NCBI GenBank assembly: GCA_011043415.1
Contig: DQXH01000042.1
Coordinates: 1 to 46,993, forward strand
Length of the DNA: 46,993 nt
Direction of reading: 5' to 3'
Source: Thermoprotei archaeon
GTDB taxonomy: Archaea; Thermoproteota; Nitrososphaeria; Geothermarchaeales; JDFR-13
A model generated the notes under the pieces. The model was not told where the DNA came from and ran no database searches. It saw only the letters and a program-made list of their open reading frames with translations. The stretch's first letter is position 1; each line of letters opens with the position of its first letter. Positions 9,691 through 11,267 of the stretch are shown here, in pieces. Made by a program: the position numbers and the translations under genes.

Positions 9691-9778
9691 GGGGCCGTAG
9701 TCTAGCTTGGCTAGGACGCCAGCCTGGGGAACTACGTCTAGAGCGCTGGTAGCCCGGGTTCAAATCCCGGCGGCCCCA
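9691..9778 (+). tRNA. tRNA-Pro (anticodon GGG) with a 14-base intron
   Basis: The acceptor GGGGCCG (9691-9697) pairs with CGGCCCC (9771-9777), with discriminator A at 9778. The D arm is GTCTAGCTTGGCTAGGAC and the T arm CCGGG-TTCAAAT-CCCGG. The anticodon stem CCAGC/GCTGG encloses 21 bases. A 7-base loop CT-GGG-G...C leaves a 14-base intron 3' of position 37, giving anticodon GGG (Pro). No CCA is encoded. A T-rich run near 9791-9805 could serve as terminator. If the intron were placed elsewhere the anticodon would change, so the isotype is less certain than the gene. Confidence 0.85.
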
Positions 9779-9819
9779 TATAGAATGTAATTATTTTTTA
9801 TTTATTGGTTGGTAAAAAG

Positions 9820-10596
9820 TTAGGAGGAGGGGGTAGGACAAAATTGTTTTCTACTGATGGTAAACCCTATTTCCCTTAGAAATACTCTGGCATATCCCTT
9901 ATGTGTATATAAATTGTATACTGTTCTTTTTCTCTTAATTATATCCCCGTATGATGTATAATATAGGCCTGGTTTTCCATTTATTGAGATCTTACCAGTT
10001 TTAATATTATAATACTTTGCTAATAAGTATTTAACATACTTCAAAAGTGAAATGTCGGTGTTATATAGTGAGATTTTGATACATCTATAATTACTTCCTT
10101 CGCTGTCATATAATCCTCGTAAAAAATATGTTATAGTATTCTTATTGTACTCAATGTACTGTTTTAAGGTATCTAGATTCTCTTCCTTAAACCATCTCAC
10201 AAATGATTTAGATTTATAACGTACTTTCCATCTTGCCTTCTTTCTATTCTTCTTCCAAACTTTTTTCGGCTTAATGTAAGGTTTACCTAACACTATTGAG
10301 ACGCATTTACTAAAGTATTCAACGAATTCTAAGTCAGTCGCTTCTAACTTAATAACGTAATCACTTTTTCTATCCTGTGTAACAGTGCCGTCTCCTAGTA
10401 GTACGCCTATGACGTATGCTAGCTCTGGCGATGGCTCTGGGTGCCACTTCGCGTTCCATGGTGTTTGTCCTCTTTTCCAGTTGATTAATGTGGATCTCGG
10501 TATATCTAGGATCTTTGATACTTTTTTGGTCCCGTATTTCTTTAATAATTTCATTGCTTTAATATAGTCTTCATATAAATATTCTCTCCGTCTCAT
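9820..10596 (-). CDS. Free-standing LAGLIDADG homing endonuclease with N-terminal HTH
   Basis: 258 residues from the ATG at 10596, chosen because GGGAGATGA lies just upstream; an ATG at 10629 would add eleven residues. Residues about 5-45 form a helix-turn-helix (KKVSKILDIPRSTLINWKRG). Two LAGLIDADG helices follow, AYVIGVLLGDG at about 60-70 and YFLRGLYDSEG at about 157-166, each ending in the expected acidic residue, so one chain should form the whole nuclease. It is very basic. It is not inside an obvious rRNA or protein gene. It is convergent with tRNA-Pro, whose end is 41 bases away, and downstream of a hairpin array on the same strand. Inverted purine-rich repeats flank it. Confidence 0.88.
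   Translation of the reverse strand: MRRREYLYEDYIKAMKLLKKYGTKKVSKILDIPRSTLINWKRGQTPWNAKWHPEPSPELAYVIGVLLGDGTVTQDRKSDYVIKLEATDLEFVEYFSKCVSIVLGKPYIKPKKVWKKNRKKARWKVRYKSKSFVRWFKEENLDTLKQYIEYNKNTITYFLRGLYDSEGSNYRCIKISLYNTDISLLKYVKYLLAKYYNIKTGKISINGKPGLYYTSYGDIIKRKRTVYNLYTHKGYARVFLREIGFTISRKQFCPTPSS
9823..9835 (+). repeat. Left inverted repeat flanking the homing endonuclease
   Basis: The plus strand reads GGAGGAGGGGGTA; it lies over the last codons of the endonuclease gene (encoding PTPSS on the minus strand). Its partner at 10665-10676 reads GGAGGAGGGGTA on the minus strand, so the two point inward as imperfect terminal repeats with one G of length difference. Confidence 0.4.
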
Positions 10597-10636
10597 ATTC
10601 TCATCTCCCTTAGTAACGAAGTCGATCATGTTATGG

Positions 10637-10660
10637 CTATAATAGGTACTTTTCTGACAT
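10637..10660 (-). CDS. Possible 7-codon leader ORF upstream of the homing endonuclease
   Basis: The minus strand has ATG at 10660-10658 followed by codons for SEKYLL and a TAG at 10639-10637. It is preceded, six bases upstream, by the purine block 10683-10665 containing GGAGGAGGGG, an unusually strong ribosome-binding-like sequence. It ends 40 bases before the chosen endonuclease start. Nothing besides the ribosome-site spacing supports translation; the block could instead belong to the flanking repeat. Confidence 0.25.
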   Translation of the reverse strand: MSEKYLL

Positions 10661-10664
10661 AGCT

Positions 10665-10676
10665 TACCCCTCCTCC
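10665..10676 (-). repeat. Right inverted repeat flanking the homing endonuclease
   Basis: The minus strand reads GGAGGAGGGGTA, the inward-facing partner of the repeat at 9823-9835. It lies between the hairpin array and the endonuclease and doubles as a ribosome-site-like sequence. Confidence 0.4.
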
Positions 10677-10685
10677 CCCTCCAGA

Positions 10686-10837
10686 GCCTCTATAACCCAC
10701 CTAGGATTATAGAGGCTTGGAGAACCCCATATACAACCCGTCTAGGATTGTATATGGGGGTTTGGGGTGGCCCACGGGACCTGCCTGAGATCCCGTGACC
10801 CCATCAACCATACACCATCCTCATTCGGTGTACGGTT
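10686..10837 (-). ncRNA. Array of four hairpins with a shared loop pattern; candidate structured RNA
   Basis: Four inverted repeats follow one another. H1 is 10686-10716 (10-base perfect stem, 11-base loop). H2 is 10725-10759 (12-base perfect stem, 11-base loop). H3 is 10773-10797 (7-base perfect stem, 11-base loop), extended across a bulge by 10763-10768 with 10798-10803. H4 is 10806-10837 (11-base stem, 10-base loop). Stem sequences differ completely, but the minus-strand loops of H1-H3 align: UCCUAGGUGGG, UCCUAGACGGG and UCUCAGGCAGG. The only mismatch in H4 is A-C on the plus strand but a G-U pair on the minus strand, favouring a minus-strand transcript leading into the endonuclease gene. 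This fits no RNA class I know. The remaining gap 10838-10976 is AT-rich and shows nothing recognisable. Confidence 0.55.
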
Positions 10838-10976
10838 TCATCCACCAAAATACAGAAATATAAAAACTTATTAGTACGCCCAATAGAGAGAAACGCCTTA
10901 CTATTGCTACGATTTTTCGTAAAAATATTTATGTTATTTGATGATCTAGAGGCTCTCGTTTAATAGATAAAAGTTT

Positions 10977-11267
10977 TTATGTTTCTACTACCATCTCCTC
11001 CGTCTTCTCTTCACTCATGCTCGATGCTATCAAAGCAAGTACCCTAACCATCATTCTAATATTATCTAGGCTATCATTCTCATCCTCGAGGTAAATGAAT
11101 GTAGAGGTCTCATCATCTTCATAATACACCATTAGATAATCTTCAATACTTCTCCTCTCCTCATATCTTAGATTTAGTGAGTGGGCCTCCCTTTTAAGCA
11201 TCTCTCTAATATCTCTAATATCACTACTCCTCCTACCTTGGGGAATATACAACACCAGTTTCTTCAT
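10977..11267 (-). CDS. Small acidic protein of unknown function downstream of Orc1/Cdc6
   Basis: 96 residues, not recognised. The first 8 residues look like a beta strand (KKLVLYIP), followed by a charged helix (about 14-30), a strand pair (LMVYYEDD, STFIYLEDE) and a long helix (about 66-85). The C-terminus is acidic with no cysteines. This could be a small alpha/beta domain. It has its own ATG, 73 bases after the stop of the same-strand orc1/cdc6 gene, so co-transcription is possible. No function is proposed. Confidence 0.6.
   Translation of the reverse strand: MKKLVLYIPQGRRSSDIRDIREMLKREAHSLNLRYEERRSIEDYLMVYYEDDETSTFIYLEDENDSLDNIRMMVRVLALIASSMSEEKTEEMVVET

Follow-up and report, generated by a model that had tools for sequence, protein, structure and literature searches.

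A tandem array of hairpins with a repeated tip, a candidate mRNA leader, upstream of an archaeal LAGLIDADG endonuclease gene at the 3' flank of tRNA-Pro(GGG)

The stretch of DNA analysed here (the window; 46,993 nucleotides of contig DQXH01000042.1, from a heat-loving, uncultured Thermoprotei archaeon) contains a gene for a LAGLIDADG endonuclease that lies tail to tail with a tRNA-Pro(GGG) gene (Table 1). Four inverted repeats follow one another in tandem at positions 10685-10837, between a TATA-like promoter and the endonuclease gene, and the promoter, the repeats and the coding region are all on the minus strand. ORF96 marks the far side of the locus.

Table 1. Features of the locus, in window coordinates.
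Feature	Position	Strand	Evidence or remark
tRNA-Pro(GGG) gene with 14-nt intron	9691..9778	+	Rfam RF00005, 56.9 bits; ARAGORN anticodon ggg
Insertion, outer limits	9779..10976	.	between tRNA-Pro and ORF96; carries promoter, array and endonuclease gene
LAGLIDADG endonuclease gene, 269 aa from first ATG	9820..10629	-	PF14528 in two stretches
Shine-Dalgarno-like AAGGGAG before conserved start ATG	10605..10611	-	sequence
Shine-Dalgarno-like purine run GGAGGGGGAGGAGGGG, 3' edge of array	10667..10682	-	sequence
Hairpin H3	10685..10717	-	11 bp + tip ATCC-UAGGU-GGGU
Hairpin H2	10725..10759	-	12 bp + tip ATCC-UAGAC-GGGU
Hairpin H1	10773..10797	-	7 bp + tip ATCU-CAGGC-AGGU
Fourth hairpin	10806..10837	-	11 bp; without tip; within recurring 5' block
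Possible short upstream ORF MKPYTE*	10821..10841	-	sequence; two synonymous differences at L002
TATA-like box TTTTTATATTT, ~20 nt before 5' block	10857..10867	-	sequence; promoter region conserved at C87 and C20
ORF96, far-side neighbour of insertion	10977..11267	-	present in 10/10 relatives of the taxonomic family searched

The endonuclease gene encodes two LAGLIDADG motifs that retain the acidic residues, as expected of a free-standing homing endonuclease, and the motif aspartates D80 and D175 are invariant in seven relatives (alignment A1). Homologues begin near the ATG at 10596, and we refer to this codon (10596-10594) as the conserved start. The protein gives a distant profile match to a solved I-DmoI/I-CreI chimera and to inteins, and by sequence profile it belongs to the same fold family as the archaeal intron and intein enzymes I-DmoI and PI-PkoII. 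Unlike these, the family in the window is free-standing, with no intron or intein host gene, and several of its members have an N-terminal helix-turn-helix.

Three relatives have the empty site: in G002, G003 and G006 (loci L182, L183 and L186), no more than about 130 nt separate the end of ORF96 from a tRNA-Pro(GGG) gene convergent with it, and neither an endonuclease gene nor anything else lies in the gap, whereas the corresponding gap in the window is ~1.2 kb. Since ORF96 and tRNA-Pro are adjacent in relatives, the promoter, the array and the endonuclease gene lie inside one insertion of ~1.2 kb; its ends are given as outer limits, the relatives compared being from other genera. The array may have arrived with the gene or may have formed within the inserted segment afterwards. 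Presence or absence of an insertion at a defined site is the pattern expected of a homing endonuclease. We also looked for an integrase-like duplication of the tRNA 3' end on the side of the insertion away from the tRNA gene and set it aside, the best copies being mostly at background level.

A homology search with the single protein as query returned no relatives, and a search with an alignment as query returned 119. Of 68 archaeal loci (L046-L113), at least 42 have the endonuclease gene convergent with a tRNA gene, usually no more than 150 nt away; these loci are not all independent, since 13 involve tRNA-Met and there may be orthologues among the loci. The 42 comprise 38 loci recognised by ARAGORN, which span 19 anticodons and have a median of 28 nt between stop codon and tRNA 3' end, together with L049 (as L040) and, by covariance model, L052, L063 and L065. 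Loci L013, L015, L044 and L045 belong to the same tRNA-convergent observation as window positions 9691-10629. Two further endonuclease genes face other stable RNAs by covariance model, 5S rRNA at L068 and SRP RNA at L057. Hosts of the family include Geothermarchaeota, Aigarchaeota, Thaumarchaeota, Thermococcus, Archaeoglobaceae and Methanocaldococcus. This arrangement suggests that these are selfish genes targeting stable-RNA genes; in the part of the literature covered, we met no description of an archaeal LAGLIDADG gene flanking a tRNA gene.

The four repeats fold as four separate hairpins in the minus-strand RNA. The predicted fold of positions 10670-10850 on this strand has an energy of -101 kcal/mol (z -9.6), which none of 200 shuffles equalled; the fold of the plus strand is weaker (z -7.7). 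Perfect stems of at least 11 bp occur twice in the whole window, as against 0.1 per shuffle, and the array is the window's sole cluster of three perfect stems of at least 7 bp within 130 nt (0.25 per shuffle). Window sequence, folding and shuffles thus bear out the four tandem hairpins of the original prediction, which are real and far beyond chance. Three of the stem lengths that it gave, 12, 7 and 11 bp, are as we find them, while the stem at 10685-10717 has 11 bp and not 10. The 30 outer pairs of H1-H3, those beyond the tips, are Watson-Crick without exception and include no G.U, and the only wobble in these three hairpins lies within their shared tip. In the fourth hairpin, which is unrelated to the other three, one of the 11 pairs is a G.U in the minus-strand RNA but reads A.C on the plus strand. 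The predicted stability per hairpin falls to between -3 and -7 kcal/mol at 80 °C.

The unit shared by H1, H2 and H3 is a tip, A-U-C-Y followed by YAGRY and R-G-G-U, in which conserved A-U, U.G, C-G and Y-R pairs carry a YAGRY pentaloop. The pattern ATCYYAGRYRGGT matches exactly three times in the array and nowhere else in the window, and the spacing from tip to tip is nearly constant at 41-43 nt. What had been described as constant 11-base loops is therefore a motif that three hairpins do share, but the supposed loops hold the U.G, C-G and Y-R pairs in addition to a 5-nt loop. Likewise, the stems had been said to have no sequence in common, which applies to the outer stems but not to H2 and H3 as a whole; these two agree at 11 of 13 tip bases and share one more A-U pair, and H1 agrees with each of them at 9 of 13. 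Equal agreement of tips arose in ~6.5e-5 of simulated hairpin triplets, an optimistic figure given that the motif was defined after being seen. As the conserved U.G of the tip in the minus-strand RNA corresponds to an A.C mismatch on the other strand, several pairs distinguish the strands, and not the single G-U proposed at the outset. The tip halves AATCC/GGGTT also resemble the tRNA T-arm GGGTTCAAATCC, a post hoc likeness.

The combination of variable stems and constant loops had been taken to indicate selection at the RNA level. We consider this argument inconclusive, because the array is a single copy and template switching at a repeated tip during replication would give the same picture. 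When H1-H3 are compared with one another, 7 of 10 pairs have changed on both sides; the hairpins themselves were picked for pairing, so this covariation cannot separate a functional leader from template switching.

The promoter and the initial ~35 nt of the putative transcript (the 5' block) recur at two further sites in the genome, C87 and C20. At C87 (L002), the copy precedes a truncated relative of the endonuclease and adjoins another tRNA gene; within L002 1441-1680 (G000:C87), the 5' block is joined to the endonuclease 3' end at a shared 8-mer, GAGGATGG, a junction suggestive of a deletion across short repeats. At C20 (L003 1459-1560, G000:C20), the third copy of the promoter is followed by a degraded, partial 5' block, and we found neither an endonuclease gene nor a tRNA gene nearby. 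The 5' block may encode the short peptide MKPYTE*, or it may be what is left of the start of an endonuclease gene (cf. ATGAAAGTCTATAGATCGTACACATATGAGGAT in L013). This last locus, in the same genome, has an endonuclease relative with a different upstream region, indicating that not every copy is accompanied by the array. A long hairpin of ~20 bp lies upstream of the L013 endonuclease gene (L013 50-150, G000:C72); it may belong to the end of a transposon gene, though a family search did not confirm this.

We folded the leaders of six homologous endonuclease genes. A leader of ~330 nt in another genus (L043, G005:C90) is more structured than expected (z -3.4), as is the leader at L042 relative to its shuffles (z -3.9); the other four are no more structured than shuffles (z -1.1 to +0.3). 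The start of the L043 leader resembles the window's 5' block, and YAGRY tips are absent from it. The tip occurs in none of the six. Homologous GC-rich palindromic stretches occur upstream of the endonuclease gene, beside different tRNA genes, at six Aigarchaeota loci (L052, L055, L058, L059, L062 and L065); we set these aside as support for a leader, since at least part of each falls within an open reading frame that runs on into the endonuclease gene.

The original prediction had proposed a search with a covariance model. We built the model from the three tip hairpins, and the window's own array scores ~34 bits. Nothing convincing was found in 15 relatives, 22 endonuclease loci or 400 genomes of the class, and the array has no further copy in its own genome. 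The remaining hits of the model (L155-L157 and L160-L165) are isolated hairpins, which judging by appearance fall within coding sequence. For the genomes searched, the lack of other arrays, one of the results that the original prediction had named as counting against it, is thus what we observe. A pattern of two tips recognised no second array in the 400 class genomes; it otherwise matched a 45-nt tandem repeat, present in two genomes, and one isolated site, where the second tip is differently spaced and no arms are evident by eye. The repeat of ~45 nt, which contains TCTCAGATAGG, is found in two genomes of one genus (L189, L190 and L192; G139:C86 and G262:C270). Searches of phages and plasmids gave no match to the array, and searches of viral contigs gave none to the 5' block. 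Rfam 15 has no match over the array at the gathering score and only chance-level hits below it, in agreement with the earlier statement that the array fits no known archaeal RNA class. The suggestion of a guide-like RNA is left without support: the array has no Rfam match, we saw no CUGA box D by eye in the 5' block, and the only hits that might indicate a C/D box or K-turn there are weak sub-threshold ones to sR32 and sR38, on L043. A conserved structured RNA class would be expected to have homologues with compensatory changes; no homologous array was found, and there is no evidence for a wider RNA class.

We favour, with moderate confidence, the reading that the array forms a structured 5' leader on the mRNA for a selfish LAGLIDADG endonuclease at the tRNA-Pro(GGG) 3' flank, because of its position, its strand, its promoter and the precedent from phages. 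The minus strand is preferred because it gives the better fold and because the U.G of the tips and the G.U of the fourth hairpin are A.C mismatches on the other strand; strand, position and fold alike support the earlier proposal of a minus-strand RNA running into the endonuclease gene, and a regulatory leader, also proposed earlier, is the most economical role for it. Further points in favour are the second copy of promoter and 5' block at C87, ahead of a truncated endonuclease relative beside another tRNA gene, the empty sites, which put array and gene into the same insertion, and the structured leader of the homologous gene at L043. Transcription would start ~25 nt downstream of the TATA-like box, and the transcript would comprise in order the short 5' block, the three YAGRY-tip hairpins, the Shine-Dalgarno-like purine run and the coding region. 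Most likely, the stacked hairpins would restrain synthesis of the DNA-cutting enzyme, either because ribosomes could not readily enter or reinitiate along the leader or because the tips would serve as docking sites for a putative tip-binding protein. An RNA function of the array is plausible.

Stand-alone endonuclease genes of phages provide the precedent. RNA structures are found at the translation starts of T4 I-TevI, Aeromonas phage Aeh1 mobE and T4 segB, and such structures reduce translation initiation, as shown for mobE and implicated for segB (PMC3014915). Read as RNA, the window's array would likewise be a structure ahead of the gene for a selfish endonuclease; mobE and segB are both stand-alone genes, and segB lies in the T4 tRNA gene region. 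In the phage genes, however, the structure occludes the ribosome site itself, whereas the window has three hairpins with the same tip farther upstream, and its host is an archaeon and its nuclease of a different family. The Shine-Dalgarno-like site nearest the conserved start is predicted to be unpaired with a probability of 0.77 with the array and 0.78 without it, so control would operate through a block to entry or reinitiation or through a tip-binding protein; only the upstream purine run is affected, its unpaired probability at 37 °C being 0.41 with the array and 0.59 without. We therefore do not class the array with the mobE/segB type, although it may act in a similar way. Also weighing against a functional leader are the single copy of the array, with no homologue in the genomes searched, the four leaders of homologues that fold no better than shuffles, the predicted indifference of the start-proximal site to the array, and the predicted weakness of the hairpins at 80 °C. 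A specific form of the leader reading, which we regard as quite improbable, is autoregulation, in which the LAGLIDADG protein of the tRNA flank or a dedicated partner would bind the three YAGRY tips of the endonuclease's own mRNA to shut off synthesis, leaving the stems free to drift as long as they pair.

The array could instead have arisen with no RNA function at all, if template switching (snap-back copying in replication) at a repeated short tip, ATCC-N5-GGGT, wrote perfect inverted copies beside each tip. According to a published proposal (PMC8794818), long stems can be created by template switching and also kept perfect by it, the stem being made or restored in one mutational event that leaves the loop untouched, and the stems of H1-H3 in the window are likewise perfect. 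The exclusively Watson-Crick outer pairs, with the sole wobble in the shared tip, are what such copying would produce, and the near-constant tip spacing and the youth of the array implied by relatives that do not have it point the same way. The window differs from the published cases in having three hairpins in tandem with one tip and no ancestral sequence for comparison. Three separate events would be required within 120 nt, the conservation of the tip and the placement between promoter and gene would be left unexplained, and the fourth hairpin does have a G.U pair. We consider this origin possible but rather doubtful.

Two other explanations appear less probable still. The repeated tip on changing stems would suit a protein-binding hairpin, and the array might act on its own as a non-coding RNA, such as a decoy that presents the tip three times to a protein; it would share the promoter and perhaps be processed off the endonuclease mRNA. 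However, no terminator or processing signal is known between the array and the gene, and the searches gave neither another copy nor a known family, which makes this improbable. An element acting at the DNA level upstream of the endonuclease gene (cruciforms, transposon ends or a small non-autonomous insertion) would account for nearly perfect inverted repeats within an inserted, probably mobile segment. It would not account for the conserved U.G pair, a mismatch in DNA; moreover, no other copy was found in the genome, the 400 class genomes, phages or plasmids, and the neighbouring proteins scanned include no transposase family. We regard such an element as very unlikely. The structured leader thus remains the reading that we prefer.

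If the array is a functional leader, hairpin control of selfish endonucleases would extend from phages to an element of an archaeal chromosome. If instead it originated by template switching, it would be a clear case of perfect RNA-like hairpins that arose without selection, and a caution for RNA discovery based on folding only. SegB-type endonuclease genes lie beside tRNA genes in many genomes, and SegB cuts within tRNA genes (PMC13096335). SegB is a phage enzyme, whereas the family described here is an archaeal LAGLIDADG family, tail to tail with the tRNA gene. With members of this family tail to tail with many tRNA genes, whether tRNA genes are the target of the enzyme becomes a directly testable question.
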